From a bacterium (GTDB lineage Bacteria; Sysuimicrobiota; Sysuimicrobiia; Sysuimicrobiales; Segetimicrobiaceae): DNA of 64,000 bases. Of the stretch, positions 33,151 through 48,176 are shown in pieces. Where the stretch lies: NCBI GenBank assembly GCA_035295165.1, contig DATGJN010000113.1, positions 1 through 64,000 on the forward strand, read 5' to 3'. A program made the position numbers and the translations under genes. The notes beneath the pieces are model-generated. The model made no database searches and was not told where the DNA came from. It saw nothing but the letters and a program-made list of their open reading frames with translations. Every line of letters starts with the position of its first letter. Position 1 is the first letter of the stretch.

Positions 33151-34368
33151 TTACTTGATCGCGTTCGCGAGTCCGAAGATGGGGAGGTAGAGCGCGAGCA
33201 GCAGGCCGCCGATCACGGCCCCCATGCCGATGATCATGAGCGGTTCAAGGATGGAGGTCAGGCTGGCCACGGCCGCCTCTACTTCGGAGTCGTAAAAGTC
33301 GGCGACCTTGTTCAACATATTGTCGAGGGCGCCCGTCTCCTCGCCGACCCGCACCATCTGGACGACCATGAGCGGGAAGATGCCGCTGGCTCCAAGCGGG
33401 ATCGCAATACTCTCGCCCTCGCGGATGCTCGAGCGGATCGAGTCGACGGCACGCCCCAGTACCGAGTTGTCGATCGCCTGGCCGACCACCTCGAGCGCCC
33501 GCATGATCGGGACGCCGCTGCTGACGAGCGTGCCGAACGTGCGGGTAAAGCGCGCCACAACGATCTTCTTGACGAGCGGTCCGAGCACCGGCAGGCGTAG
33601 CTTGAGCCGGTCGTACTGCTCGCGGCCGACCCGCGTGCGGACGTACCGGCGTAGGGCGAAGACGGTGCCCCCGATCACGATGGTCGCCAACCACCAGAAG
33701 TGCCGGATGATCAGGCTCACCCCGACGGCAATCTGAGTCGGGATCGGCAGCGGCGCGTTGCCCCCGAGCTGTTTGAAGAAGTCGGCGAACTGCGGGATGA
33801 TGACAATCGTCATGAACATGAGGGCGCTCAACGCCGCGACCGCCAGCAGGATCGGGTAGGTCATCGCCGACTTGATCTTGTGGCGCAGCGCCATCTCCTT
33901 CTCGAGGAAGGTGGCAAGCCGCAGTAGGACGTCGTCGAGCACGCCGCCGGCCTCACCGGCGCGCACCATGTTCACGTACAGGTTGTTGAACACCCGTGGA
34001 TGCTTCGCGAGCGCGGCGCTCAGGGTGGACCCGCCCTCGATGTCGACGCGGATGTGCCCGATCGTCTCCTTGAGGATCGGCTGCGTCACCTGCTCTTCCA
34101 AAATCGTGAGGGTCCGCACGAGCGAGAGGCCGGCGTTGATCATCGTCGCGAACTGCCGGCTGAACACCACGAGGTCCTTCAGCCCGACGCCGCGCCAGCG
34201 CCGGAAGATGTCCTCGACGTTCTGCGACTTCTTCTTCTGATGGAGCGCCGTGACGAAGAACCCCATGTCCCAGAGCTTCTGGGCCACGATCGCCTCGCTG
34301 TCGCCCTCCAGCGCGCCGGCCAAGAGCTTGCCGCTGTTGTCCCGCGCCGTGTACTCAAACACAGCCAT
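33151..34368 (-). CDS. pilC: Type IV pilus inner-membrane platform protein PilC
   Basis: A 405 aa protein of the T2SF/PilC family that couples the PilB and PilT motors to pilin assembly. Two cytoplasmic T2SF helical domains (about 70-190 and 275-395) are each followed by membrane helices; the usual three segments are visible (about 170-190, 220-240, 375-395). Motifs include FSRQFATMINAGLSLVRTL, PRVFNNLYVNMVRAGEAGG and FTRTFGTLVSSGVPIMRAL. It is full length and lies directly downstream of pilT. Confidence 0.95.
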   Translation of the reverse strand: MAVFEYTARDNSGKLLAGALEGDSEAIVAQKLWDMGFFVTALHQKKKSQNVEDIFRRWRGVGLKDLVVFSRQFATMINAGLSLVRTLTILEEQVTQPILKETIGHIRVDIEGGSTLSAALAKHPRVFNNLYVNMVRAGEAGGVLDDVLLRLATFLEKEMALRHKIKSAMTYPILLAVAALSALMFMTIVIIPQFADFFKQLGGNAPLPIPTQIAVGVSLIIRHFWWLATIVIGGTVFALRRYVRTRVGREQYDRLKLRLPVLGPLVKKIVVARFTRTFGTLVSSGVPIMRALEVVGQAIDNSVLGRAVDSIRSSIREGESIAIPLGASGIFPLMVVQMVRVGEETGALDNMLNKVADFYDSEVEAAVASLTSILEPLMIIGMGAVIGGLLLALYLPIFGLANAIK

Positions 34369-34401
34369 GCTGGTGTGCCTCCCTTCCGACCCGGGCGTCC
34401 G

Positions 34402-35589
34402 TCACCGCGCCTTGCGCTCCTCGCTCGTGCGCCGTCCGCCCCCAAGGATCTTGCTCATCTCTTCCGGGTGAATCGCCCGGTTGATCGCGGTCTCGTTGCT
34501 GATCAACCCGCGCCGGTGCAGCTCGGCAAGCGCGCTGTCCATCGTCTGCATGCCGAACTGGCCCCCGGTCTGGATCGCGGACTCGATCTGGTGGCTCTTC
34601 GATTCCCGGATCAAGTTGCGGATCGCCGGGGTCGCGATCATCACTTCGACCGCAGGCAGACGCCCCACTTCCTCAATTGCGATCCGTGCCCGCTTGATCG
34701 TCGCGACGGCCCCATCGCCGGCGACTCGCGCCGCAGCCTGTTCCGCCGGCCGCCGCGCGCCCACATATCGCTCGTTCGGCACGAGTTGCTGCGCGATCAC
34801 CGCCTCGAGCACCGAGGACAGCTGCGTCCGGATCTGCGGCTGCTGGTGTGGCGGAAATACGTCGATGATCCGGTCGATGCACTGGGCCGCGGTGGCCGTG
34901 TGCAGCGTCGCGAACACCAGGTGACCGGTTTCGGCGATCGTCAGCGCCGCGGCGATCGTCTCGAGGTCCCGCATCTCGCCGATCAGCACCACGTTGGGAT
35001 CCTCGCGCAGCACCCCGCGCAGCGCATTGGGGAAGCTTTGCGTGTCAAACCCGAGCTCGCGCTGATTGACGATGCTCTTCTTGTTCGTGTGCAGGTACTC
35101 GATGGGATCCTCGACGGTGACGATGTGGCACGCGCGCTCGCCGTTGATGAAGTCCACCATCGACGCGAGCGCCGTGCTCTTGCCGTTTCCCGTCGGCCCG
35201 GTGATCAGCACCAACCCGCGGTGCCTCCGCGCCAAATCCAACAGGATCGGCGGCAGGTTGAGCTCGTCGATCGACGGGATCGCCGACGGGATGGTGCGCA
35301 TCGCCACGCCCACCGCGCCGCGCTGCCGGTAGAGGTTCACGCGGAACCGGCCGAGTCCCGTGACGCCGTACGAGAGGTCGAGCTCCCAGGTCTTCTCGAA
35401 CCGCTGCTTCTGAAACGCGTTCAGCATGCTGTATGCGAGCTGGGACGTGTCCTCGGGCTCCAACAGCTCGTGGTGTTCGAGCGCTACGAGCTTCCCCCAC
35501 ACGCGGATCGTCGGTTTCGCGCCTGCCGTCAGGTGCAGGTCGCTCGCGTGCGCCGCCACCGTTTCGCGCAGCAGATCGTCTACGTGCAT
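34402..35589 (-). CDS. pilT: Pilus retraction ATPase PilT
   Basis: A 395 aa hexameric ATPase that drives pilus retraction. An N-terminal PAS-like domain starts HVDDLLRETVAAHASDLHLT. The Walker A is GPTGNGKST at 131-139, followed by the Asp box VTVEDPIEYLH, VLIGEMRDLETI for Walker B, and the His box GHLVFATLHTATA. The retraction-specific segment IIDVFPPHQQPQIRTQL is present, which separates it from PilB. The ATG at 35587-35589 has GGGGGAGGA upstream. Confidence 0.95.
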   Translation of the reverse strand: MHVDDLLRETVAAHASDLHLTAGAKPTIRVWGKLVALEHHELLEPEDTSQLAYSMLNAFQKQRFEKTWELDLSYGVTGLGRFRVNLYRQRGAVGVAMRTIPSAIPSIDELNLPPILLDLARRHRGLVLITGPTGNGKSTALASMVDFINGERACHIVTVEDPIEYLHTNKKSIVNQRELGFDTQSFPNALRGVLREDPNVVLIGEMRDLETIAAALTIAETGHLVFATLHTATAAQCIDRIIDVFPPHQQPQIRTQLSSVLEAVIAQQLVPNERYVGARRPAEQAAARVAGDGAVATIKRARIAIEEVGRLPAVEVMIATPAIRNLIRESKSHQIESAIQTGGQFGMQTMDSALAELHRRGLISNETAINRAIHPEEMSKILGGGRRTSEERKAR

Positions 35590-35763
35590 GCTCGTCCTCC
35601 CCCTGGTCCACCGTCTCGCCATGCTCGAACGCGTTCGCGCGGCCCGCGAGGCCCGACCCGCGCCCCCAGGCCGGCACCGATGGCGCTCACCGCCACGCCA
35701 CCCCGCGATCCGCCCGTGACGAGTTGGCCCGTCCGGCGGGGCCCTACCGCCAGCGTCCGGACC

Positions 35764-37539
35764 TCAGTCCTCCACATATACTGCCCGTAGTACTTCCTCC
35801 GCAGACGTGATGCCCAAAAGCACCTTCGTGAAGCCATCCTGCCCTAGCGTCCGCATCCCGGCGCGGATCGCCGCCTGCCGGACGTCGGCCACCGACGCTT
35901 GCTTCGTCACCAAGGAGCGGATCGTGTCGTCGATCGACATGATCTCGAACAGCGCCGTGCGCCCGAGGTAGCCGATGTTCCCGCAGTGGTCGCATCCCTG
36001 CGGCCGGTAGAACGTGGCGGCACCGGCCTGTTCGGCCGCCAGCGCCCCGAACCGGTCGAGGAGTTCCGCCGGGGGCAGATACGGCTGTTTGCACCGATCG
36101 CAGAGGACGCGCACGAGGCGCTGGGCGATCACGCCCACCATCGACGACGCCACGAGGAACGGCTCGATGCCCATGTCCACGAGGCGCGCCACGGCCCCAG
36201 GCGCGTCGTTCGTGTGGAGGGTGCTCAGGACGAGGTGGCCGGTCAGCGCCGCATGGATCGTGATCCGCGCGGTCTCCTCGTCGCGGACCTCGCCGACCAT
36301 GATGATGTCCGGGTCCTGCCGGAGAAACGACCGCAGACCGTTCGCGAACGTGAGCCCGGCCTTCGGGTTGACCTGCACCTGGTTGATGCCCGGGAGCTGG
36401 TACTCCACCGGATCCTCCACGGTGATGATGTTGGACTCGGTGGAGTTGAGCCGATTCAGGATCGAGTACAGGGTCGTGCTTTTGCCGCTGCCGGTCGGCC
36501 CCGTGAGCAGGATGATCCCGTGCGGCCTGGAGATCATCGCGTCGAACCGCGGAAAATCGACGGGCAGGAGGCCGACGCGCTCGAGTCCCACGACCGTCGC
36601 GCTCTTGTCCAGGATGCGCATCACGACCTTCTCGCCGAACACGGTCGGGATCGTGCTCACGCGCAGATCGTAGTCCTTGCCTTCCGCTTTGTATGCGATG
36701 CGGCCGTCCTGGGGCACGCGCCGTTCCGCGATGTCGATGTCCGCCATGATCTTGACGCGCGAGATGACCGCGGCCTGAATGTCGCGCGCGGGGGTCATCA
36801 CGTTGTACAGCGCGCCGTCGATGCGGTAACGGACCCGCATCCGGAACTCCTGCGGTTCGATGTGGATGTCGCTCGCTCGTTGACGGATCGCCTGCAGGAT
36901 GATCATGTTGACCAGGCGCACGACCGGGGCCTCGTCGACGAGCGCCCGAAGCTGATCGACGCCCATCTCGTCCTTGGACAGCGCCTTGGCCTTGATCTCC
37001 GTGATCACCGTCTCGACGCTCTCGTCGAGCGCGGGATACTGGTTGATCGCCCGCTGAAAATCTTCCGGCGTGATGACCACGGGCTCGATCTCGCGTGCGG
37101 TCCGCGTGTGGACGTCGTCTAGCGCCAGGACGTCCAGCGGATCGACCATCCCGACCGTGAGCTTGTCGCCGTCGATCGCGATGGGGATCGTCTGAAACCG
37201 GCGCGCGAGATGTTCGGGCAGCAGCAACATCGCCTGCTCGTCGGGGACGGTCTCCCGCAGGTCGACGTACCGGAGCCCGAGCTGCAGCGCCAGCGCCTCG
37301 CCGATCCCTCGCTCGGTGGCGCATCCCATGTCGACGAGCACTTGCCCGAGGCCGCGGTGCCGCCCCGCGCGCTTCTGTTCGCCGAGCGCCTCGGCGAGTT
37401 GCTCGAGCGTGATCACGCCCGCGTCGACCAGAATCTCGCCGAGCCGGCGGCGGCGCAGCGCGGCCCCCGGGCGTGCCTTCTGCGCGTCGCCAGGAACCGG
37501 GATCTGCACCAGCTTGTCGTCCATCGCTCGTGCGGCCAT
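35764..37539 (-). CDS. pilB: Pilus extension ATPase PilB (copy 1)
   Basis: A 591 aa GspE/PilB-type ATPase. The N-terminal T2SSE_N domains span about 30-180, then the catalytic core with Walker A GPTGSGKST at 347-355, VEDPVEYQLPGINQVQVN, MVGEVRDEETARI and GHLVLSTLHTNDA. The zinc-binding tetracysteine CDRCKQPYLPP and CDHCGNIGYLGR near the C-terminus is complete. The ATG is preceded by GGGAG and lies two bases after the stop of the DnaB-like gene. It drives pilus extension; the presence of a second, longer copy 1.6 kb upstream is notable. Confidence 0.94.
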   Translation of the reverse strand: MAARAMDDKLVQIPVPGDAQKARPGAALRRRRLGEILVDAGVITLEQLAEALGEQKRAGRHRGLGQVLVDMGCATERGIGEALALQLGLRYVDLRETVPDEQAMLLLPEHLARRFQTIPIAIDGDKLTVGMVDPLDVLALDDVHTRTAREIEPVVITPEDFQRAINQYPALDESVETVITEIKAKALSKDEMGVDQLRALVDEAPVVRLVNMIILQAIRQRASDIHIEPQEFRMRVRYRIDGALYNVMTPARDIQAAVISRVKIMADIDIAERRVPQDGRIAYKAEGKDYDLRVSTIPTVFGEKVVMRILDKSATVVGLERVGLLPVDFPRFDAMISRPHGIILLTGPTGSGKSTTLYSILNRLNSTESNIITVEDPVEYQLPGINQVQVNPKAGLTFANGLRSFLRQDPDIIMVGEVRDEETARITIHAALTGHLVLSTLHTNDAPGAVARLVDMGIEPFLVASSMVGVIAQRLVRVLCDRCKQPYLPPAELLDRFGALAAEQAGAATFYRPQGCDHCGNIGYLGRTALFEIMSIDDTIRSLVTKQASVADVRQAAIRAGMRTLGQDGFTKVLLGITSAEEVLRAVYVED

Positions 37540-37541
37540 AG

Positions 37542-39107
37542 TTATCTCCCTTCCCGGTGTCCGGCGGCGGCCAACGGCAGCACACCGGTGTCGATCAGCT
37601 GGGCGTAGATGCTCTGCAGCTTCGTGAACGCGTGGTAGTCCGGCCGGTACTCGCGCTCCAGCTTGTAGTCCAGCTCGACAAACTTGTTCAGCGTCACGAA
37701 GAACGCATACTGGATGATCGTCGCGGCGTGCTCGGGCGCGTCGCGGTTCTTGTCGAAGTGCAGATTCACGATGTCCAGCTTCGGCAGGAGGTCCGGGTCC
37801 ACGTTGGCCGCCTTCGCCCGGTTCTCCACGAACTGCCCGAACTCGGCGGTGGCCTTCCAGTCTTTGGCCAGCACCATCGCCACGTCCAGGTCGTACTCCA
37901 GGTCGCCGCTCCCCACGCTGTGGTGCATCGTCGGGCGATGGTACTGGGAGTAGGCGTCGTCCTCTTCTGCGGGCCGCTCGTCGAGCCGACAGCCTTCCTT
38001 GTCGAGCGGCGAGATCGCCAGGATCGGCACGTTGAGCTCGAGGCTCAGCTCGGCCAGATCGGTCGAGATCCGGTCGGTGCGCGCCTTCCAGTCCTCCAGA
38101 TGCTCCCCGAGGGGGATCTTCTGCAGGTAGTCGAAGAACAACGCGACCTCGCTGGTCTGGAACTCCTGCATCACGTTGTAGGCGTGTGACCGGATCCGTG
38201 CGATCGTGTCCTGGCGGCCCGCCTCGATCAGAAACATATAGGGTGCAAACGAGCCCATCCGCTCCTGGGCCGAGCGCACCGCCGCCGCGACCGGCCGATC
38301 GTCGGGCTGCCCGCCGCCCAGAATGGCGGCGGGGCTGATGCCGCTCTCCTTGGCGATCAGGCGCGCGCCCAACACCTGGGCGGTTTGCTCCCACGAGTAG
38401 AAGAGTACCGGGATGTGGTTATTCGCCGCGATGTACATCGCCAGCTGGAGCGCTAGGTTCGTCTTGCCGCGGCGTGGCGCCCCGGCGAGCCCGTAGTAAA
38501 ATCCGCGGCGCATGCCGGACAACAACGTGGTGAGACGGTCGAACGGCGCCAGCGAGTACCCCAACAGCCCCGGCAGGTCGTGACGTTGCTCCGCCTCATT
38601 CGCGAGCCGCGCGACCACCTCGGTCACCGGCTGCAAGTGCGCCTGCATCCGCTGCCGCTGCATCTCCACGAGCTCGTGGATGATCCCCGACGCAAGCTGT
38701 TGGACCTCGCTGTCCGACCCGCCAGCCCCCCCCAGAAACGTGCCGAGGCGGGCGTGCAACGTCGACAACCGCTCGCGACGCTCGCGGACCCGCAGTTGTT
38801 CGATAAACTCCATCAACTGCCCGGCGTTCGGAATCTTCACCGCCGCGACGCGTTGCAGATACCGGTCCATCTCGGGCGTGGCGAGCCCGAGCCGCTCGAT
38901 CGCCGCCCGGACTGCCACGGGGTCGATCACCGCATCGCGCGTCGCGTAGAGCTCCATCACGACCCGGCACAGCCGGGTCGCGGCGGGCACGCGCAAGAGC
39001 TCCTGCTTGAACCCTTCGCGCATGGCGAGGGTCACGAGGTGTCGGTCCCGAATGAACCCATGCAGGATCGCAGCTTCTACGACTTCATCTGGCGTCTCGT
39101 ACGGCAC
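37542..39107 (-). CDS. DnaB-like SF4 hexameric ATPase/helicase in the pilus operon
   Basis: A 521 aa protein with the DnaB layout: a reduced N-terminal helical domain (about 5-120, with AILHGFIRDRHLVTLAMREG and IDPVAVRAAIERLGL) and a RecA-like core. Visible motifs are Walker A GAPRRGKT (209-216), catalytic-type Glu240 in LFYSWEQTAQVLGARLIAKE, Walker B with D326 in VALFFDYLQK, SGDLEYDLDVAMVL (400-413) and the Arg-finger-like KNR (453-455). All residues needed for ATP hydrolysis appear intact. The glutamine of the usual SQL motif is replaced (ISPLDK). The GTG start has AGGGAG six bases upstream. It lies between the two pilB genes, with a two-base gap to pilB1. Its role in the pilus context is unknown. 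Confidence 0.85.
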   Translation of the reverse strand: MPYETPDEVVEAAILHGFIRDRHLVTLAMREGFKQELLRVPAATRLCRVVMELYATRDAVIDPVAVRAAIERLGLATPEMDRYLQRVAAVKIPNAGQLMEFIEQLRVRERRERLSTLHARLGTFLGGAGGSDSEVQQLASGIIHELVEMQRQRMQAHLQPVTEVVARLANEAEQRHDLPGLLGYSLAPFDRLTTLLSGMRRGFYYGLAGAPRRGKTNLALQLAMYIAANNHIPVLFYSWEQTAQVLGARLIAKESGISPAAILGGGQPDDRPVAAAVRSAQERMGSFAPYMFLIEAGRQDTIARIRSHAYNVMQEFQTSEVALFFDYLQKIPLGEHLEDWKARTDRISTDLAELSLELNVPILAISPLDKEGCRLDERPAEEDDAYSQYHRPTMHHSVGSGDLEYDLDVAMVLAKDWKATAEFGQFVENRAKAANVDPDLLPKLDIVNLHFDKNRDAPEHAATIIQYAFFVTLNKFVELDYKLEREYRPDYHAFTKLQSIYAQLIDTGVLPLAAAGHREGR

Positions 39108-39141
39108 GGACCGCTCCCTTCTTCCACCATGCGCCCAACGA

Positions 39142-41616
39142 CTAGTCGGCGACGAACACGACGCGAAGCATCTCTTCCATCGTGGTGGTGCCCTCGAGTA
39201 CCCGCTGGATCCCATGCTGCCGGAGCGTGCGCATCCCCGCCTCCTGGGCGGCCTCGCGCAGCCGGTCCGCCGATTGGCCGCCCAACACCAACTTCCGCAG
39301 CGCCTCGGAGACCATCATCAACTCGAACACGCCGATGCGCCCGTGGTATCCCGTCTGGCGGCACGCGTCGCACCCGCGGCCCCGGTAGAACTGCGGCGCG
39401 TCGCCCGCCTGGACGGCCCCGATGTGGCGGAGCGCTTCCGCGGGCGGCGCGTACGCTTCTTTGCAGCGGCTGCAGACGACCCGCACGAGGCGCTGGGCGA
39501 GGACGCCGATCAGCGATGAGGAAATCAGGAACGGCTCGACGCCCATGTCGACGAGGCGCGTCACGGCGCTCGGGGCGTCGTTCGTGTGCACGGTGCTGAG
39601 GACGAGGTGGCCCGTCATCGACGCCTGGATCGCGATCTCGGCGGTCTCGCGGTCCCGGATCTCGCCGATCAGGATCACGTCGGGATCCTGGCGCAGGATC
39701 GTCCGCAGACCGTTCGCAAACGTCAAGCCCACCTTGGGGTTCACCTGAACCTGATTCACCCGCGGGATCTGGTATTCGACCGGATCCTCCACGCTCACGA
39801 TGTTGCGCTCCGGCGTGTTGATGCGCGCCAGCGACGTGTAGAGCGTGGTGGTCTTGCCGCTGCCGGTCGGCCCGGTGACGAGGATGAGCCCGTACGGCTT
39901 CGTAATCAGGTTCTCCCACGTGGCCAGCAGGTGATCCGCGAACCCCAGTTGGGTCAGCGTAATCCGGGTGCGCGACGGATCGAGGATCCGCAGCACCACC
40001 TTTTCGCCCAACACGGTGGGCAGGCTGCTGACCCGCAGATCGAAGTCCTTGCCGTTCACGCGGAGGTGGATATGCCCATCCTGCGGCAATCGGCGTTCCG
40101 CGATGTCCATGTTCGCGAGAATCTTGATGCGCGAGATCAGTGCCGCCTGCACCGCCTTGGGTGGGGTCATGAAGTCCTGCAAGATCCCGTCCACGCGGAA
40201 ACGCACCTTCACCTCTTGCGCGTGCGGCTCGATGTGAACGTCGCTCGCCTCGGCAAACACGGCCTGCGTGAGGATCTGGTTGACGGCCCGCACGATCGGG
40301 GCGTCTTCCACCATCGCGCGGAGATGTTCGACCGTGACGTCCTCGGAGGGCGCCTCGCCGATCGCCTCCGGCTCCACCGTCCCCTTGAGCATCTCCTCGA
40401 TGTCCGCGTGGCCGCCGTAGATCATGCCGTGCACGCGGGCGAGATCCACCGGGCTCGCAACCATCAAGTCCACGTCGAGCCCCGTGACGAGGCGGATGTC
40501 GTCGATCGCGACAACGTTGGCGGGATCGGCGATCGCGACGACCAGCCGGTTGCTGGCGCGCCGAATCGGCACCACCCCGTGGCGCCGCGCGAGATACGCC
40601 GGGAGGAGGCGGGCGGACTCGAGGTCCACATCGCGGTCGGGCAGGCTCGTGTACGGCAGATTCCACTGCAGGGCCAGCGCCCGGGCGAGTTGCTCCTCGG
40701 TCAGCGCCTGCATGTTGACCAGGATGCGTCCGAGTGGGGCGCCGTTGCGCTGCTGCAGTTGCAGCGCATCCTTGACCTGGTCCCGGGTGACCCACCCCTG
40801 CCGCACCACGATCTCGCCCAGGAGATCGCCCCATCGCTGCCGACCTGCCGCGCTCTCAACCGATGGCGCGCCCGCCGCCGCGGATGTCTCGGAGACCGGC
40901 GCGGACCCGCCGCTGCCGTTGCCGCTGGGCAGCCGCGCTGCTGCCGGGCCAGCGTCCTCTCGCTCGACGGACGGCGCGCGCGGGACCTCTCGAATCTCCA
41001 CGATCTCGAGATCGGTCTCGCCCACGTCGGCCGCCGGGGTGGAGGCGGACGCCTGAGGCACGGCCGCTTCGGTTGCGTCGAGGACCGGACGTTCCTGAAC
41101 CGGCGCTGCGGAAACGTGCCGTTCCCGGGCGGCGCGAATGGCTGTGTCGAGCTGCGGCAGCGCCCGTTTCTGCCCGGCCTGCTCGGTCACCTCGCGCAAC
41201 GATGTGAGGATGTCCACGTCGTCAGGCGCGAGCTCCGCGGCGCGCGCGAGCGCCCGCGCGGCCTCGTTCCATTGGCCCCGTGCGACGCACCGGTCGGCAA
41301 ACGCCCCGAGCACGACCACGGCCGGCCGTGCATCCGCCTGGAGGGCGTACACATCGGCTAGTTCCCAGTACGCCCAGGGATCGTCCGGGGCTAGCTCGAT
41401 CGCCTTCTTGAAGCACGCGACGGCGTCATCGAGCTCTCCGGCCCGGTGGCGGGTCACGCCGGTATGGAACCATATCGCGACGTCCAGGGCGCAGTCCCGC
41501 TCGGCCAGCCCCAAGACCTCCCGGTAGGCGGCCAGTTGCTCCCTGACGTCCCCCACGCCGTCGCCGGCGGTCTGTTCCCCGGGCGTCCGGATGACCTCGG
41601 CGCGATCTACAGGCAC
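39142..41616 (-). CDS. pilB: TPR-fused PilB/GspE-type pilus ATPase (copy 2)
   Basis: An 824 aa protein, about 250 aa longer than usual. Residues 45-135 form TPR-like repeats (AVACFKKAIELAPDDPWAYW), then a disordered Ala/Pro/Ser-rich linker (about 150-260). T2SSE_N domains follow from about 262, then the ATPase core with Walker A GPTGSGKTT at 582-590, VEDPVEYQIPRVNQVQVN, LIGEIRDRETAEI and the zinc cysteines CSRCKEAYAPP and CDACRQTGYHGR. The GTG start overlaps the end of the roadblock gene by 10 bp, so translation is probably coupled. The TPR module suggests a partner protein that regulates this motor. Confidence 0.9.
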   Translation of the reverse strand: MPVDRAEVIRTPGEQTAGDGVGDVREQLAAYREVLGLAERDCALDVAIWFHTGVTRHRAGELDDAVACFKKAIELAPDDPWAYWELADVYALQADARPAVVVLGAFADRCVARGQWNEAARALARAAELAPDDVDILTSLREVTEQAGQKRALPQLDTAIRAARERHVSAAPVQERPVLDATEAAVPQASASTPAADVGETDLEIVEIREVPRAPSVEREDAGPAAARLPSGNGSGGSAPVSETSAAAGAPSVESAAGRQRWGDLLGEIVVRQGWVTRDQVKDALQLQQRNGAPLGRILVNMQALTEEQLARALALQWNLPYTSLPDRDVDLESARLLPAYLARRHGVVPIRRASNRLVVAIADPANVVAIDDIRLVTGLDVDLMVASPVDLARVHGMIYGGHADIEEMLKGTVEPEAIGEAPSEDVTVEHLRAMVEDAPIVRAVNQILTQAVFAEASDVHIEPHAQEVKVRFRVDGILQDFMTPPKAVQAALISRIKILANMDIAERRLPQDGHIHLRVNGKDFDLRVSSLPTVLGEKVVLRILDPSRTRITLTQLGFADHLLATWENLITKPYGLILVTGPTGSGKTTTLYTSLARINTPERNIVSVEDPVEYQIPRVNQVQVNPKVGLTFANGLRTILRQDPDVILIGEIRDRETAEIAIQASMTGHLVLSTVHTNDAPSAVTRLVDMGVEPFLISSSLIGVLAQRLVRVVCSRCKEAYAPPAEALRHIGAVQAGDAPQFYRGRGCDACRQTGYHGRIGVFELMMVSEALRKLVLGGQSADRLREAAQEAGMRTLRQHGIQRVLEGTTTMEEMLRVVFVAD

Positions 41617-41978
41617 TCGGCCACCATGGCGCGGACGCGCTGGGTCTCGACCCGGATCCGGCCGAGGTTGCAGAAGCGGCTCCCCATCAACACGAGCATG
41701 GAATCCTTGTTGACCTGGGTGACGGCGATCGGCCCGGCCGGGAACTCGGCGAGCAGCACGTCAGGCGGACCGGCGGCCTGGATCTCGGTGGCGACACCCT
41801 CCCACGCGAGCATGGCGCTGCTCACGAGCGCGCCGACCGCGTCCAAGTCGACTTCCTCAGACTTCGCTGCGTCGATGACGAACCCGTCGCGGCTCACGGC
41901 GATCGCGGCGACGATCGCGCCTTTGTGTGTCAAGTCGTTCAACACGTCTTTGAGGTTCAATGTGAGATTCGTTGCCAT
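41607..41978 (-). CDS. Roadblock/LC7 domain protein 1
   Basis: A 123 aa single-domain protein of the roadblock/LC7 (MglB-like) fold: NLTLNLKDVLNDLTHKGAIV, then AVSRDGFVIDAAKSEEVDLD, GALVSSAMLAWEGVATEI and a C-terminal helix. MglB-type proteins are GAPs for small GTPases that place T4P machinery at cell poles. The ATG follows a GGGGGGTG site, and the frame extends upstream without a better start. It lies between the second roadblock gene and pilB2. No GTPase gene is visible in the window. Confidence 0.85.
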   Translation of the reverse strand: MATNLTLNLKDVLNDLTHKGAIVAAIAVSRDGFVIDAAKSEEVDLDAVGALVSSAMLAWEGVATEIQAAGPPDVLLAEFPAGPIAVTQVNKDSMLVLMGSRFCNLGRIRVETQRVRAMVAECL

Positions 41979-42006
41979 GGCGCACCCCCCGAGTGACTGT
42001 GGTCGA

Positions 42007-42381
42007 TTATCCTGCGACTGCCTCGTTGATTGCCGCAAGCTCCGGTACGTGCCGGCGAAGCTGAACGCGGGCCGTGCCCACGTTGGCCTTGCCGTTGAGG
42101 AACACCGCCACGCACCGGTCGGGCGCGGGCGCTGCCACGAGTACCGTGAACCGCTCGCAGCTCATCATGAAGTCGTTGAACCCCGAGGCGTGCAGCTTCC
42201 GGCACATGTAGATCAGGAGCTTGGTCAGCGTCGTGATCTCGTGGTTGACCGCTTCCAGCGGAAAGTGCGCGTCGAGCTTGACCACGTCGATCGGCGTGCC
42301 GTCCATCGCGATCACGCCTGCGCCCATCGCGCCGGGGGTGCCTGACACAATCGCATCCAAGATCTCGCGCACTCTGGTCAT
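42007..42381 (-). CDS. Roadblock/LC7 domain protein 2
   Basis: A 124 aa protein with the roadblock/LC7 pattern: VREILDAIVSGTPGAMGAGV, then IAMDGTPIDVVKLDAHFPLE, a central helix, and a beta strand CERFTVLVAAPAPDRCVAVF. It is divergent from the first roadblock protein, so the two could form a heterodimer. It is separated by 28 bp from the next gene and by 76 bp from the sigma factor upstream. Function in pilus control is inferred from position. Confidence 0.8.
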   Translation of the reverse strand: MTRVREILDAIVSGTPGAMGAGVIAMDGTPIDVVKLDAHFPLEAVNHEITTLTKLLIYMCRKLHASGFNDFMMSCERFTVLVAAPAPDRCVAVFLNGKANVGTARVQLRRHVPELAAINEAVAG

Positions 42382-42457
42382 TCACCGCTCCGCCGATCGT
42401 CTTGAGCATCGTCCATCGTCCTTGTCGCGGCCTGCGCACCCACACGGCGGTGAGCGC

Positions 42458-43288
42458 CTACCGATGGTGCAGATCACTGACATGGGTCATGGTGGACAAG
42501 CGTTTCAGTGCCGCCGACAGGACCCGCGACACGTGCCGCTGCGAGATCCCAAGCCGCGCGGCCACCTCGCTGTGACTCAGATCCATGTAGAACAGGTAGT
42601 AGACGATCTTCCGCTGCAGATCCGCAAGCCGTTCGATGGCCTGCAGCAGCACGATCCGGTCCTCGACCGGCAGCTGAAACGAGATGTACCGCTGGTGCGT
42701 GATCATGTCGCGCCGAACGTTCGTCTCGCTGATCGTGTCGTCCATCGACCGGACGTTCGTGGTATCGTAGGCGCGCACAATCTCGTCGACGCCCTTCTCG
42801 GTCATGTTCATTTTGGCCGCGATTTCCGCATGCGTCGGGGTCCGCCCCAGCAGCTGCTGCAGTTCCGCGACCGCGCCCACGAGTTCCCCATAGAGTTTAC
42901 GGGCCCACCGCGGCACCTGTACGGCGTCGGCGTCGTCTCGCAGGTAGTGACGGATCTGGCCCGAGATGTGGCTGTACGCGTACGCCTCGAATTTCACGTT
43001 GCGGTCGGGATCGAAGTGCCGGACCGCGTGCATCAGCCCGATCGTGCCAACCTGAGTCAAGTCCTCGAGAGACACCGAAGGCCGCACGTACCGGTGGGCC
43101 ACCTTGCGCGCCAGCGGCAAGAACCGGCAGACGAGATCTTCGAACAGGGTCGTGTCCCGCGTCTGTCGGTACTCGCGAAACAGGCCGAGGACCTCTTCGT
43201 CTGGCGCCTCAGCGACATCAGGCAGCCACGCCGGCCGAGTGGCGGCCGCAGGGCCTTCCGCGGGCGCGTGCCCGGACTGCGGGGTCAT
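42458..43288 (-). CDS. SigB/WhiG/FliA-like RNA polymerase sigma factor (copy 1)
   Basis: A 276 aa sigma-70-family group 3 factor. Region 2 is VCRFLPLARKVAHRYVRPSV and LEDLTQVGTIGLMHAVRHFD, ending FEAYAYSHISGQIRHYLRDD. Region 3 has TPTHAEIAAKMNMTEKGVDE, and region 4 has LSHSEVAARLGISQRHVSRV. A 40-residue acidic N-terminus precedes region 2 and region 1.1 is absent. It lies between the MerR-like gene and the roadblock genes, and is about half identical by eye to the second sigma factor. It probably directs transcription of pilus or surface genes. Confidence 0.9.
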   Translation of the reverse strand: MTPQSGHAPAEGPAAATRPAWLPDVAEAPDEEVLGLFREYRQTRDTTLFEDLVCRFLPLARKVAHRYVRPSVSLEDLTQVGTIGLMHAVRHFDPDRNVKFEAYAYSHISGQIRHYLRDDADAVQVPRWARKLYGELVGAVAELQQLLGRTPTHAEIAAKMNMTEKGVDEIVRAYDTTNVRSMDDTISETNVRRDMITHQRYISFQLPVEDRIVLLQAIERLADLQRKIVYYLFYMDLSHSEVAARLGISQRHVSRVLSAALKRLSTMTHVSDLHHR

Positions 43289-43324
43289 CGTCGCACCGCC
43301 GACGGACCGGATCGGCCCGCTCGG

Positions 43325-43666
43325 CTATCCATTGTGCCGCCGACCCGCAGCGACGGCCGCCTCCGGCACGTCACGCGACGTCGACGGGTCCGACGGCTCG
43401 TCATCCCCATCCGCGGCGATCGGCTGCGCGGCGAGCCACGCGCCCACGCCCTGCAGGCTCATGCCCTGCTCTTCAATCAGGCGCCGGATCTGGCGGATCA
43501 GCTCCAGGTCTTGCATTGAGTAGAGGCGGTGATGCCCCCTGGTGCGAGCCGGTTGCAGGAGACGATACTCCACCTCCCACATCCGCAGGCGTCGAGGTTC
43601 GACCCCCGTGAGCGCTGCCGCGGTTCGGATCGGGTAGATTGGTAGATTCCCGAGCCTCGGTCCCAT
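43325..43666 (-). CDS. Small MerR-type (HspR-like) transcriptional regulator
   Basis: A 113 aa protein with one MerR winged-helix domain: LPIYPIRTAAALTGVEPRRL, RMWEVEYRLLQPARTRGHHR, LYSMQDLELIRQIRRLIEEQ, then GMSLQGVGAWL. The ending resembles HspR-type short MerR proteins with no effector domain; about 35 residues of polar tail follow. The ATG has a GGAGAGG site. It is flanked by two sigma-factor genes of the same family, and overlap and spacing indicate a single transcript. Confidence 0.85.
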   Translation of the reverse strand: MGPRLGNLPIYPIRTAAALTGVEPRRLRMWEVEYRLLQPARTRGHHRLYSMQDLELIRQIRRLIEEQGMSLQGVGAWLAAQPIAADGDDEPSDPSTSRDVPEAAVAAGRRHNG

Positions 43667-43706
43667 GACACCACCTCTCCTTGAGCCCTGAGAGCCCTGA
43701 TCTGCG

Positions 43707-44486
43707 TTATGCACCGCCGGCACCGACGGTCTGCACGAGCGGGGCGAGGCGCTTGAGCGCCGCGGCCAGCAACCGGGACACGTGCCGCTGCGAGATACCC
43801 ATCAGCTTGGCAGTCTCGCTCTGGGTGAGATCGAGATAGAACAGGTAGTACACAGCCTTCCGCTGGACCTCAGCCAGCCGCTCGATCGCCTGGAGCAGCA
43901 TCACGCGGTCTTCGATCGGGAGCTGGAACGACACGTATCGCTGGCGTGGCGCGGGCTGGGCGTCGCCGCCGGCCTCGTCGTTGATGCGCTCGACGCGGGT
44001 GGCCCCGTAGGCCTGGAGCACCTCCAGGAGCTCATCGTCGGTGATCCGCATGCGCTTGGCGATCTCGGGCAGCGTCGCGGATCGCCCGAGCTCCTGCTGC
44101 AACTCGGCGCCGGCGGCTTTCATTTCACCGTAGGCCTTGCGGGCCCACCGCGGAGTGCGCATGAGGTCGACGTCGTCGCGGAGGTAATGTCGAATCTCGC
44201 CCGCCACGTGGTGGTAGGCGTACGTCTCAAACTTGACGTTGCGCGCCGGGTCGAAGGTGTTGACCGCGGTCATCAACCCGATCGCGCCGACCTGGATGAG
44301 ATCATCGAGCGGTATGGACTGCCGGACATACCGGCGCGCGATCTTGCGCACAAGCGGAAGATACTGGCACACCAACTGGTGATACAGTCCGACATCCTTC
44401 GTGCGCCTGTACTGATGGAACACTTCCGAAATCGCGGGCCCGTTTGAACCCGAATCTTCCTGAATGGCCATCGCACTCGTGCCCAT
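43707..44486 (-). CDS. SigB/WhiG/FliA-like RNA polymerase sigma factor (copy 2)
   Basis: A 259 aa group 3 sigma factor, first gene of the motor operon. Region 2 is VCQYLPLVRKIARRYVRQSI and LDDLIQVGAIGLMTAVNTFD, region 3 has TLPEIAKRMRITDDELLEVL, and region 4 is LTQSETAKLMGISQRHVSRL. The ATG at 44484-44486 has GGGGGGGAG upstream; longer open frame to 44555 lacks a better start. The 5' leader of over 200 nt carries a GEMM-I riboswitch and a terminator, so expression of this factor and the downstream pilus genes should respond to cyclic di-GMP. Confidence 0.9.
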   Translation of the reverse strand: MGTSAMAIQEDSGSNGPAISEVFHQYRRTKDVGLYHQLVCQYLPLVRKIARRYVRQSIPLDDLIQVGAIGLMTAVNTFDPARNVKFETYAYHHVAGEIRHYLRDDVDLMRTPRWARKAYGEMKAAGAELQQELGRSATLPEIAKRMRITDDELLEVLQAYGATRVERINDEAGGDAQPAPRQRYVSFQLPIEDRVMLLQAIERLAEVQRKAVYYLFYLDLTQSETAKLMGISQRHVSRLLAAALKRLAPLVQTVGAGGA

Positions 44487-44694
44487 GCTCCCCCCCCATC
44501 CAATGCCACCCGCCGACCACCTGCGCGCCGGTGTCCTGTCTCGGCTCTGGCGCACAGATGCCGGCCCTTCCGTCGCCTCCGCGCTTCCGCGGGGAACGGA
44601 CCGGCTTATATCGCGGTTGGATCACTCTGTTGGGGGCAATCAGACAGAAGACAGAAGACAGAAAGACAGCGGGACCTGTGGTACGCGGGTGTTT
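44487..44694 (-). other. Untranslated leader between terminator and sigma-factor start
   Basis: About 208 nt of the leader after the terminator. It contains a short GAAGACAGAA-like repeat tract (around 44640-44670) but no open frame with a credible start. It may hold sequences that affect translation of the sigma factor; nothing specific is recognised. Confidence 0.4.
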
Positions 44695-44731
44695 TTGGAG
44701 AAAAAAGAAGCCTCCCACGCACCACGGGAGG
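44695..44731 (-). terminator. Intrinsic terminator of the riboswitch expression platform
   Basis: On the minus strand CCTCCC and GGGAGG pair (extended by two G-U pairs) around a short loop, followed by CTTCTTTTTTCT, a proper T run. It lies 11 nt downstream of the aptamer. The 5' arm CCCGTGG (44722-44728) is complementary to CCACGGG (44786-44792) inside the aptamer, so alternative pairing between the two is possible. Confidence 0.8.
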
Positions 44732-44742
44732 TTTCCGGTTGT

Positions 44743-44835
44743 CGCTCCGGCAACCCGGCTGACTTGCCAGCTCGCGCTGGCCTGTCCCGTGGCTTTGCGT
44801 CCCCAGATCTCTCTGGGTTTGCCCCTACAGAAGCG
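44743..44835 (-). promoter_or_regulatory. GEMM-I cyclic-di-GMP riboswitch aptamer
   Basis: Read on the minus strand, the RNA has the GEMM-I core in order. The GGGGCAAACC segment is followed by a hairpin CCCAGA-GAGA-TCTGGG with a GNRA loop (44802-44817). Then come GGACGCAAAGCC, a second hairpin CCAGC-GCGA-GCTGG, and the closing GTCAGCCGGGTTGCC. A closing helix CGCTTC/GGAGCG (44830-44835 with 44743-44748) bounds the domain. Nucleotides equivalent to the ligand-contacting G20, A47 and C92 of the Vibrio Vc2 aptamer appear as G, A and C, which favours cyclic di-GMP over cGAMP. It is followed by an intrinsic terminator and the sigma/pilus operon. Confidence 0.82.
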
Positions 44836-44854
44836 GCACAGCTATGAAGTTGTA

Positions 44855-44915
44855 CCTACTAAGTAATCATATTCATGGAAACTTGTCAAGACACTGTCTG
44901 AAAGATTATAACCGC
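44855..44915 (-). promoter_or_regulatory. AT-rich promoter region of the riboswitch transcript
   Basis: This stretch is strikingly AT-rich for the window. On the minus strand it has a perfect TATAAT at 44905-44910 and a TTGACA at 44884-44889 with TATGAT at 44866-44871, but no pair has standard spacing (TTGACA to TATGAT is only 12 nt). An inverted repeat AGACA-C-TGTCT (44890-44900) lies between them. Which element starts the transcript is not resolved. Confidence 0.4.
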
Positions 44916-45001
44916 CCGTTGACCCAGCCTCTTGAGATCTTCCGCCATGCCGTCACGCCGCTCGGCCGCAGGCAATGCCGTGTCGTGGCGCTGACGGGTG
45001 A

Positions 45002-45020
45002 CTCGCGATTTTATCGCGAG
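45002..45020. other. Perfect palindromic hairpin downstream of ruvX
   Basis: CTCGCGAT and ATCGCGAG form an 8 bp perfect stem with a TTT loop, 32 bp after the ruvX stop. No T run follows on the minus strand, so it is a weak terminator at best; it could also be an operator for the riboswitch promoter nearby. Confidence 0.45.
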
Positions 45021-45051
45021 GAACACCCGCTCCACGGCACCCCGACGGCGA

Positions 45052-45468
45052 TCATGACCGTCGCGCGTCGAGCCGTGCTTGGAGCACGACGGCCGCTGCC
45101 ACGCGGTCGCGCGCGTGGCGCCGTTCCTCTCGACGGGCACCCCCGCGGATCAGCGCGCGTTCCGCCGCGACCGTCGACAGACGCTCATCCCACAGTTCCA
45201 CGTGGAGTCCGGTGTGCGCGCGCAGCCGCTCGGCGAACGCCTCCGCGTCCCTCGCCGCCGGACCGGACGTGCCGTCCATGTTGCGCGGCCACCCGACGAT
45301 CACGCTCGCAACCCCATGCGCCGCGCACAACGCCGCCACCTGTCCTACGTCCCCGCGCGCCGACCGATGGGGGATCGTCGTCAACGGGGACGCGACGGTC
45401 CCGGTCGGATCGCTGAGCGCGATCCCGATGCGCTTCGTACCGAGGTCGACCCCCAGCACTCGGCTCAC
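45052..45468 (-). CDS. ruvX: Putative pre-16S rRNA nuclease RuvX/YqgF
   Basis: A 138 aa RNase H-fold nuclease involved in 16S rRNA 5' processing. All family motifs are present: VLGVDLGTKRIGIALSD at the N-terminus, VIVGWPRNMDGTSGPAA, ELWDERLSTVAAERAL and the final DRVAAAVVLQARLD with the catalytic aspartate. Its ATG overlaps the alaS stop by four bases. The alaS-ruvX pairing is a common bacterial arrangement. Confidence 0.93.
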   Translation of the reverse strand: MSRVLGVDLGTKRIGIALSDPTGTVASPLTTIPHRSARGDVGQVAALCAAHGVASVIVGWPRNMDGTSGPAARDAEAFAERLRAHTGLHVELWDERLSTVAAERALIRGGARREERRHARDRVAAAVVLQARLDARRS

Positions 45469-48176
45469 CGCGGCCCTCCCGTCGCCCCGGCGATCACTTC
45501 GCGGACGATCTCCGGCAGCGCATCGATCGCCTCGGCCAGACGCTCCGGGTCACCCCCGCCCCCCTGCGCCAGTTCGGGTCGTCCACCGCCCCGCGTGCCC
45601 AGCCGCCGGTTGAGCGCCTGCATCACCTTGGATGCGGCCGCGCCGCGCTCCACGGCACCGGGCGTGGCCATGACCACCAGCTCGATCCGGCCGTTCGCGC
45701 CGCCGGCGGCCACGATGACGCCGGCCGGAAGGCGCGGCTTCACGCGGTCCCCAAGGGCGCGCAGCGCCGCCTGATCGGCGCCCGCGACGGTCACGCCGAC
45801 GACCGCGATCCCATCCACGTCCCGCGCCGACCGCACGAGCGCATCAAGATCCGGAACCGCGACGCCTACCCTGGCGCGCTCCGCGCCACGCTCCACGGCC
45901 CGCCGCCGTTGTTCGAGCTGCTTCACGCGCTCGGGCAACGCGTCGGGCGCCACGCGCAACTCGGCGGCGGCCTCCCGCAGCTTCGTCTGGGCCGCGTGAA
46001 CCCGGTCTGACGCGCCCCGGCCGGTCACGGCTTCGAGGCGGCGGGTCCCGGCGCCGACAGAGCCTTCGTTCGTCACGAGAAACAGACCGATCTCCGACGT
46101 CACCCGCACGTGCGTGCCGCCGCACAACTCGCGGCTGTACGCGTCGATGCTGACGACACGCACCTCGTCGCCGTACTTCTCCCCGAACAGGGCCATCGCG
46201 CCGGCATCGACGGCCTCACGGTACGACATCACCGCGGTCTCGACCGGCAGCGCGCCCAGAATCTGCGCGTTCACGCGATCCTCGATCCGGGTGAGCTCGT
46301 CGGGCGTGAGCGCGGCCATGTGCACGAAATCGAAACGCAGGCGGTCGGGCGCCACCAGCGACCCCGCTTGGCGCGCGTGCTCACCGAGGATCTCGCGCAG
46401 CGCCTTGTGCAACAGGTGCGTCGCGGTGTGGTTGCGGGCGATATCGCTCCGGCGCGCCGCGTCGACCGCCAGCCGGACGCGGTCCCCTTCTCGCAGCAGC
46501 CCCGCCGCGATGCGCCCGTGGTGCACCCACACCCCGGGCACGGGCCGCTGGGTGTCGCGCACCTCGACCGCCCCCCTCGCCCCGCGAATCTCGCCCGTGT
46601 CGCCGACCTGCCCGCCGGCCTCCCCGTAGAACGGGGTCCGGTCGCAGACGATCTCCACGTCCTGGCCGGCCTCCGCCGCGCGCACCCGCCGCCCGCCGGC
46701 GAGGAGCGCCACGACGCGGCCCTCGGCCTCGAGCGCATCGTACCCGAGGAACACCGTCTCGGTGCCCGCGTCCCGCAGTTCGCCGTATGCGGTTCGATCC
46801 GGGGCATCGAACTTGAACGCCAGCGCCCCGCGGGAGCGTTCGCGCTGCCGCTCCATCTCCGACGCAAACTCCGCCTCGTCGATCTCCATCCCGGCCTCGC
46901 GGGCGACGTCCCGCGTCAGATCAGGCGGGAAGCCATACGTATCGTACAGCCGGAACACCTCGGCGCCCGGCAGCGACGACCCGCCGCGTGCGCGGGTCTC
47001 GGTGATCAGCGCGTCGAGCCGCTCGAGCCCGGCGTCCAGCGTGCGCTCGAATCTCGCCTCTTCGGCCCCGAGCACGTCGCGGATGTACGGCCGCTGCTGC
47101 ACCACTTCGGGGTACGCATCCCCCATGACGGCGATCACCTCGTCTGCGACGCGGGGGAGCAGCGCCTGCGGTCCCTCGGTGGCGTGCGTCGATCCCGGAT
47201 CCTCGGCGATCATGCGCCGGGCGAACCGCATCGCGCGCCGCATGATCATCCGAAGGACGTAGCTGCGCCCCTCGTTGCCTGGCACGACGCCGTCGGCAAC
47301 GAGAAACGTCATCGCGCGGCCGTGATCGGCCAGTACCCGATACGCCACGGCGTGCGCCGCCCGCTGCGCCGCGCTGTGGCCCAGGATTCTGGTCTGGATC
47401 CCGCCGAGAATCGGCAGGAACAGGTCGGTATCGTAGTTCGTCGGCACGTGCTGCAGCACCGAGACGATGCGCTCGAACCCCATGCCGGTATCGACGCCCG
47501 GCTTCGGCAGCGGCGTGCGGACGCCGCCGGGCGCCTGGTTGAACTGCATGAACACCAGGTTCCAGATCTCGATCCACCGGCCGCAGCCATTGTCGAGGGC
47601 GACGCTGCAGTCCGCCCGGCCGCACGTACACGCCTCGGGCCCCCAATCGTAATGCAGTTCGCTCGTCGGTCCGCACGGCCCGACATCGCCCATCATCCAG
47701 AAATTCGTCTTCTCGCCCATCCGCAGCACCCGCGCGGGGGACGCGCCGACCGCGGCCCACGCGTCTGCGGCCTCGTCGTCGTCGTGGAACACCGTGAAGA
47801 CCAGGCGGTCCTGCGGAATACCCAGCGGACCGGTCACCAGCTCCCAGGCGAACCGCACCGCGTCGCGCTTGAAGTAGTCGCCGAAACTGAAGTTGCCGAG
47901 CATCTCGAAGAACGTGTGATGCCACGGCGACGGGCCAACGTTCTCGAGATCGTTGTGCTTGCCGCTCACCCGCATGCATTTCTGGACGGTGGTCGCGCGG
48001 AGGTACGGCCGCTGCTCCAGCCCGAGGAACACGTCCTTGAACTGGACCATCCCCGCGTTCGTGAAGAGCAGCGTGGGATCGCCTGCGGGAACGAGCGACG
48101 CGCTGCGGACGCGCCGGTGCCCCTGCCCCTCGAAGTAGCGAAGGAAGATTTCCCGGACCTCGGCGCCCGTCTTCAT
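45465..48176 (-). CDS. alaS: Alanyl-tRNA synthetase
   Basis: A 903 aa class II synthetase that charges tRNA-Ala. The N-terminal aminoacylation domain has REIFLRYFEGQGHRRV, LVPAGDPTLLFTNAGMVQFK and FGDYFKRDAVRFAWE. The editing domain has HTATHLLHKALREILG and CGGTHVRVTSEIG, giving the zinc/editing residues. A C-terminal DHHA1-like domain ends the protein. It is full length. It is preceded by the aminotransferase gene (16 bp gap) and followed by ruvX. Confidence 0.96.
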   Translation of the reverse strand: MKTGAEVREIFLRYFEGQGHRRVRSASLVPAGDPTLLFTNAGMVQFKDVFLGLEQRPYLRATTVQKCMRVSGKHNDLENVGPSPWHHTFFEMLGNFSFGDYFKRDAVRFAWELVTGPLGIPQDRLVFTVFHDDDEAADAWAAVGASPARVLRMGEKTNFWMMGDVGPCGPTSELHYDWGPEACTCGRADCSVALDNGCGRWIEIWNLVFMQFNQAPGGVRTPLPKPGVDTGMGFERIVSVLQHVPTNYDTDLFLPILGGIQTRILGHSAAQRAAHAVAYRVLADHGRAMTFLVADGVVPGNEGRSYVLRMIMRRAMRFARRMIAEDPGSTHATEGPQALLPRVADEVIAVMGDAYPEVVQQRPYIRDVLGAEEARFERTLDAGLERLDALITETRARGGSSLPGAEVFRLYDTYGFPPDLTRDVAREAGMEIDEAEFASEMERQRERSRGALAFKFDAPDRTAYGELRDAGTETVFLGYDALEAEGRVVALLAGGRRVRAAEAGQDVEIVCDRTPFYGEAGGQVGDTGEIRGARGAVEVRDTQRPVPGVWVHHGRIAAGLLREGDRVRLAVDAARRSDIARNHTATHLLHKALREILGEHARQAGSLVAPDRLRFDFVHMAALTPDELTRIEDRVNAQILGALPVETAVMSYREAVDAGAMALFGEKYGDEVRVVSIDAYSRELCGGTHVRVTSEIGLFLVTNEGSVGAGTRRLEAVTGRGASDRVHAAQTKLREAAAELRVAPDALPERVKQLEQRRRAVERGAERARVGVAVPDLDALVRSARDVDGIAVVGVTVAGADQAALRALGDRVKPRLPAGVIVAAGGANGRIELVVMATPGAVERGAAASKVMQALNRRLGTRGGGRPELAQGGGGDPERLAEAIDALPEIVREVIAGATGGPR

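Follow-up and report, generated by a model that had tools for sequence, protein, structure and literature searches.

The ring helicases of the DnaB family are regarded chiefly as machines of replication and recombination. The replicative helicase (TIGR00665; structures 4ESV of Bst and 4NMN of Aquifex) is built of an N-domain, a linker helix and a RecA domain. In Bst DnaB, K418 and R420 complete the ATP site of the neighbour, and the phosphates of ssDNA are contacted by R381, E382 and G384 (PMC6391071, PMC8421360), the contacts of E382 and G384 being partly main-chain (PMC8421360). RadA/Sms is a DnaB-type helicase that acts outside replication (PMC5512693). Two further groups are of interest here, the PilB/PilT secretion ATPases, which are also ring ATPases, and divDNAB (PF20307), a DnaB-derived ATPase by its Pfam name.

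The gene compared with these systems, DNAB2, was found in a Sysuimicrobiota genome, in a stretch of 64,000 nucleotides that was analysed as a whole and is called the window. This phylum corresponds to CSP1-3, which is listed under Candidatus Sysuimicrobiota (PMC11604079). No relevant paper on a DnaB paralogue linked to pili was found in the open-access library searched, and the DNAB2 family is apparently undescribed so far.

DNAB2 is encoded between two pilus motor genes

The DNAB2 gene is intact, with 521 codons for a 521-aa protein, a GTG start at 39107 and a TAA stop at 37544-37542 (Table 1); the purine-rich stretch gggagcgg lies directly 5' of the GTG. Upstream, pilB2 ends at 39142, 34 nt before this start, and downstream the DNAB2 stop is separated by 2 nt from the ATG of pilB1 (37539). 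After pilB1 come pilT, pilC, pilin-like genes and glycosyltransferase-like genes, and pilB2 is preceded by two small Roadblock-type/unnamed genes, two sigma factors, a MerR gene, yqgF and alaS. Of the annotated genes around DNAB2 in the window, none could be recognised as a replication gene. The original prediction was right on this last point, as it was on the coordinates, the distance to pilB1 and the presence of the full set of ATPase motifs.

A promoter scan of the operon gave no sigma-70-like site and was uninformative. The unnamed 124-aa gene adjoining the Robl_LC7 gene matched no Pfam or NCBIfam family. The order alaS-yqgF-(...)-pilB-pilT-pilC, which covers 33151-48176 of the window, is common to Sysuimicrobiota and one Caldisericota genome (L214), and is an old synteny of the pilus locus that is independent of DNAB2.

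Table 1. Features of the DNAB2 operon and protein, with positions in the window
Feature	Position	Strand	Basis or remark
DNAB2, divergent DnaB-family ring ATPase	37542..39107	-	Pfam DnaB_C, DnaB fold, separate clade
pilB2, TPR + MshEN + T2SSE motor ATPase	39142..41616	-	Pfam and NCBIfam
pilB1, MshEN-type PilB/GspE motor ATPase	35764..37539	-	NCBIfam
pilT, retraction motor ATPase	34402..35622	-	NCBIfam TIGR01420, over cut-off
pilC, platform protein	33151..34368	-	NCBIfam PilC/GspF matches
Two small conserved operon genes	41607..42381	-	Both kept in the operon of relatives
Robl_LC7 gene	41607..42038	-	Pfam
Unnamed 124-aa gene	42007..42381	-	Operon conservation
Walker A, GAPRRGKT	38460..38483	-	Residues 209-216; R212, R213, G214, K215 and T216 invariant in 50/50
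Rebuilt DNA-contact loop, RPTMHHSVGSGDLEYD	37889..37937	-	Residues 391-406; V398 at the Bst R381 position
Trans-acting KNR motif	37741..37751	-	Residues 453-455; invariant in 50/50

Distribution of DNAB2

Relatives of DNAB2 were detected in 36 of the 43 Sysuimicrobiota genomes, at one locus each except for one draft in which the gene is split across contigs, and in 34 of the 54 genomes of the Caldisericota/Cryosericota group. A scan of GTDB representatives revealed 111 encoded relatives, 80 of which were kept. These belong to about nine phyla (Caldisericota, Cryosericota, Sysuimicrobiota, Riflebacteria, Wallbacteria, Muiribacteria, Mcinerneyibacteria, Acidobacteriota and Desulfomonilaceae), some records labelled only as 'bacterium' having been assigned to groups by similarity. 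The UBP16 records among them are nearly identical to one Wallbacteria record. As DNAB2 is present in most genomes of the phylum and 52 columns are invariant over 50 DNAB2 sequences from about nine phyla, the observation goes beyond chance.

Family f1 (G000-G011), that of the window's genome, is as a whole devoid of ComEC, which almost all other Sysuimicrobiota keep.

Domain plan and ATPase residues

The Pfam DnaB_C domain was matched by the window protein with E=2e-23 (83.5 bits, cut-off 27) and by all 50 DNAB2 members, and full-length DnaB models could be aligned with residues 10 to 477. Nevertheless, the window protein stayed far below the cut-offs of both the replicative DnaB equivalog TIGR00665 (106.5 bits vs 385.25) and the phage DnaB-type helicase TIGR03600 (99.6 bits vs 498.65). 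It had no match to the NCBIfam sms model of RadA/Sms, and the RadA model gave 15 bits, with a cut-off of 403, for one Riflebacteria member. Unlike the PilB/PilT ATPases, with which it shares an operon and a ring form that is predicted for it, DNAB2 had no match to the Pfam T2SSE domain. A weak match to divDNAB was detected in five of the 50 members and none in the window protein; all 50 match DnaB_C, the best E values being 2.4e-38 for DnaB_C and 1.1e-5 for divDNAB.

A structural model predicted from the 50-sequence alignment (mean pLDDT 84, pTM 0.81) comprises a helical N-domain, a linker helix and a RecA domain, the same plan as in replicative DnaB, and its residues 6-484 match DnaB structures (VIA Z about 27). 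Two inner stretches were poorly modelled, 370-380 and 384-403, and these take in the region of the DNA-contact loop. The RecA-type ring domain is also shared with RadA/Sms (VIA Z about 21.6), but DNAB2 differs from the latter in its DnaB N-domain, and a separate RadA-like protein is encoded in the window's genome.

Every catalytic and trans-acting ATPase residue of replicative DnaB is conserved in DNAB2. None of the 50 sequences departs from the Lys-Thr pair of Walker A, the catalytic Glu240, Asp326 of Walker B or the trans-acting pair Lys453 and Arg455. In the window protein, Glu240 stands in YSWEQT and Asp326 in FFDYLQ, and ISPLDK is present at 365-370 and SGDLEYD at 400-406. In contrast, overall identity to the DnaB of its own phylum is about 19%, and the SQL motif of DnaB is replaced by S-P/S-L-D-K.

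DNAB2 is separate from replicative DnaB

A second DnaB_C protein, on contig C103, is the canonical DnaB of the window's genome. Likewise, 15 of the 18 DNAB2-bearing genomes from other phyla contain a strong canonical DnaB match (E<1e-65); no strong second match was detected in G128 and G130, and G119 was ambiguous. In a maximum-likelihood tree of 63 sequences (35 DNAB2, 19 chromosomal DnaB, seven phage, one plasmid and RadA), a branch with 100/100 support and a length of 3.0 changes per site separated all the DNAB2 rows from housekeeping DnaB, the phage and plasmid copies and RadA. This tree was used for the DNAB2 branch only, because its bootstrap had yet to settle fully and there were very long rows in the outgroup.

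The resident canonical DnaB and the tree both bear out the proposal of a divergent DnaB-type ATPase that is not the replicative one. There is a strong case for DNAB2 as a family of its own that is not replicative and, by its residues, competent as an ATPase, and it can be firmly placed as an ancient paralogue family within the DnaB (SF4) ring helicases. The original prediction spoke of a neofunctionalised helicase; its divergent and non-replicative character holds, but 'ancient paralogue' is the more apt term because the split is far deeper than Sysuimicrobiota. The automatic label 'replicative DNA helicase' would be wrong for the whole DNAB2 family.

The canonical DnaB of the window's genome (L194:1286-4444, minus strand of contig C103) is a 1052-aa open reading frame interrupted by two inteins: one follows ARPSVGK in Walker A, the other follows SHLRE inside the RE/SG DNA-contact loop. 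The DnaB of the close relative G002 is of ordinary length.

Changes in the DNA-contact loop

The position equivalent to R381 of Bst DnaB was occupied by Arg in all 19 canonical DnaB proteins of this comparison, whereas DNAB2 is divided here into two branches. In the branch holding the window protein (Sysuimicrobiota, Caldisericota, Cryosericota, Mcinerneyibacteria, Acidobacteriota and Desulfomonilaceae) the residue is Thr, Val or Met, with Val in the window protein itself, and in the sister branch (Riflebacteria, Wallbacteria, Muiribacteria, U126 and UBP16) it is Lys. The equivalent of E382 is Gly in 50 out of 50 DNAB2 sequences. The alignment of both positions is secure, since the spacing from RP to SG is equal in DNAB2 and canonical DnaB. 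Most of the Lys branch (23 of the 25 scanned proteins) has an N-terminal Zn-ribbon, as does RadA/Sms; none was found among the scanned proteins of the Thr/Val/Met branch.

Taken at the level of residues, DNAB2 would be a functional ring ATPase whose grip on nucleic acid is different or weaker. DNA may still be bound, because the contacts of E382 and G384 in the Bst enzyme are partly main-chain.

Pilus genes around DNAB2 in relatives

In the Sysuimicrobiota families f1 (genera g1 and g2), f6 and f4, DNAB2 was located among pilB, pilT and pilC genes. This was also so in f6 with pilB inverted and a MerR gene inserted, and in f4, where DNAB2 adjoins pilT. In the f1 genome G005, DNAB2 is missing from the pilB2-pilB1 operon and belongs to another pilus locus, which also contains pilins, PilM and PilN. 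Family f2 has an intact orthologous pilB2-pilB1-pilT-pilC operon that does not include DNAB2; there the gene is solitary and located elsewhere. The expectation that the position beside pilB would be conserved was thus borne out for most Sysuimicrobiota, but not for family f2 or for several other phyla.

Outside Sysuimicrobiota, minor pilins, pilB and pilC were detected at about 2-10 kb from DNAB2 in Riflebacteria, and pilB at about 1.5-3 kb in two Wallbacteria and the lineage U126. A split secretin adjoins DNAB2 in Muiribacterium, and a MshEN-SPOR protein, a looser link, is encoded near it in Mcinerneyibacteria. The Muiribacterium secretin (L142:697-1761) reads as two open reading frames, whether through a stop codon, a frameshift or faulty assembly. 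No pilus genes were found within the fetched DNAB2 flanks in Caldisericota, Cryosericota, Acidobacteriota and Desulfomonilaceae.

Altogether, pilus-type genes were present at 43 of the 102 DNAB2 loci compared to three of the 34 canonical dnaB loci of the same clades used as control (pilM once and pilin-like ORFs twice), counts in which the loci of one clade depend on each other and some DNAB2 genomes are included from both collections and so counted twice. Counted by clade the enrichment is modest, so the strong per-locus figure is not to be over-read, and the link between DNAB2 and pili outside Sysuimicrobiota is suggestive. In the Caldisericota group, families f28-f30 have neither strong PilM matches nor DNAB2; the pilus-bearing f31 is also without DNAB2. 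In all, several genomes with pili have no DNAB2.

Possible functions of DNAB2

From gene order, the best single guess for Sysuimicrobiota would be a pilus-linked function. We tentatively favour DNAB2 as a ring ATPase that works off the replication fork and has an accessory or regulatory role for the pilus, other than in DNA uptake. The protein would form a hexamer-type ring, as predicted, and its ATP cycle would drive a movement or conformational change on something besides the fork, candidate substrates being ssDNA or RNA, held through the altered grip, or a protein partner. In Sysuimicrobiota it would be co-expressed with the type IV pilus, given its tight position between or beside the genes of PilB, PilT and PilC. 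This role is favoured because DNAB2 stays among pilus genes through the rearranged orders of f1, f4, f6 and G005 and has pilus-type genes near it in some other phyla, and it is weakened because the f2 operon does without DNAB2, four groups have no pilus genes nearby, several genomes with pili lack DNAB2 and the enrichment by clade is modest. If true, this would mean that the motor of a replicative helicase was recruited to another cell process, in a paralogue that is deeply conserved, keeps its motor intact, has its DNA-contact loop rebuilt and recurs beside type IV pilus genes. It seems rather unlikely that DNAB2 goes as far as being a further cytoplasmic ring ATPase of the pilus, with its DNA grip lost and a role as cofactor, switch or adaptor of PilB/PilT, in Sysuimicrobiota and probably in other deep phyla.

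Nearly as likely as a pilus accessory ATPase, and thus a quite credible alternative, is a general role as a nucleic-acid helicase or remodelling ATPase, in repair of the RadA kind, in restarting replication or in work on RNA; the presence of DNAB2 in a pilus operon would then be incidental. The DnaB fold with its intact motor is consistent with such a function, as is the maintenance of DNAB2 away from pilus genes in f2 and several phyla; the sister branch has, besides the Zn-ribbon, a basic residue where DNA is contacted, and RadA provides the precedent of a DnaB-type recombination helicase (PMC5512693). However, the recurrence of the pilus neighbourhood through rearrangement in Sysuimicrobiota argues against it, and so does the fact that the window's branch no longer has the Arg that grips DNA. 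The same neighbourhood would suit a role in natural transformation, with DNAB2 processing the DNA imported by pili, and RadA, a DnaB-type helicase, does act in transformation in Firmicutes. Many other DNAB2-bearing genomes have ComEC, which was matched in 50 of the 54 Caldisericota-group genomes. Nevertheless, no ComEC match was obtained in the window's genome or its 11 family relatives (0/12), whereas the same search was positive in 27 of the 31 remaining Sysuimicrobiota genomes. As ComEC is missing from the whole family, the DNA-uptake role put forward in the original prediction is improbable here. DprA had no match in the window's genome either, which adds little weight because 10 of the 12 family members keep it. 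Least probable by far is an additional replicative helicase, or one that the chromosome acquired from a phage or plasmid; the full-length matches to models of DnaB and phage DnaB, which are weak, could point this way. Against this, the virus-contig scan gave nothing above 24% identity to DNAB2, the listed phage and plasmid matches were weak (about 23-33% identity over partial lengths), and DNAB2 is a single clade of bacterial chromosomes from many phyla, with neither replication nor phage genes recognised among its neighbours; a phage or plasmid origin was rejected on these grounds. A defence gene was also discarded, with no PADLOC match.

Other genes next to DNAB2

A partner gene conserved across all the DNAB2 phyla was not found. 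In Riflebacteria and Muiribacterium, DNAB2 is followed by a TPR-like lipoprotein with a weak similarity between the two (24% identity), and the resemblance of U126 to this protein is too weak to claim. Only in Caldisericota and Cryosericota (L085-L088, L092-L101) does the gene of a GerMN-domain (Germane) protein lie a short way upstream of DNAB2; in Caldisericaceae the two are separated by an amidohydrolase gene.
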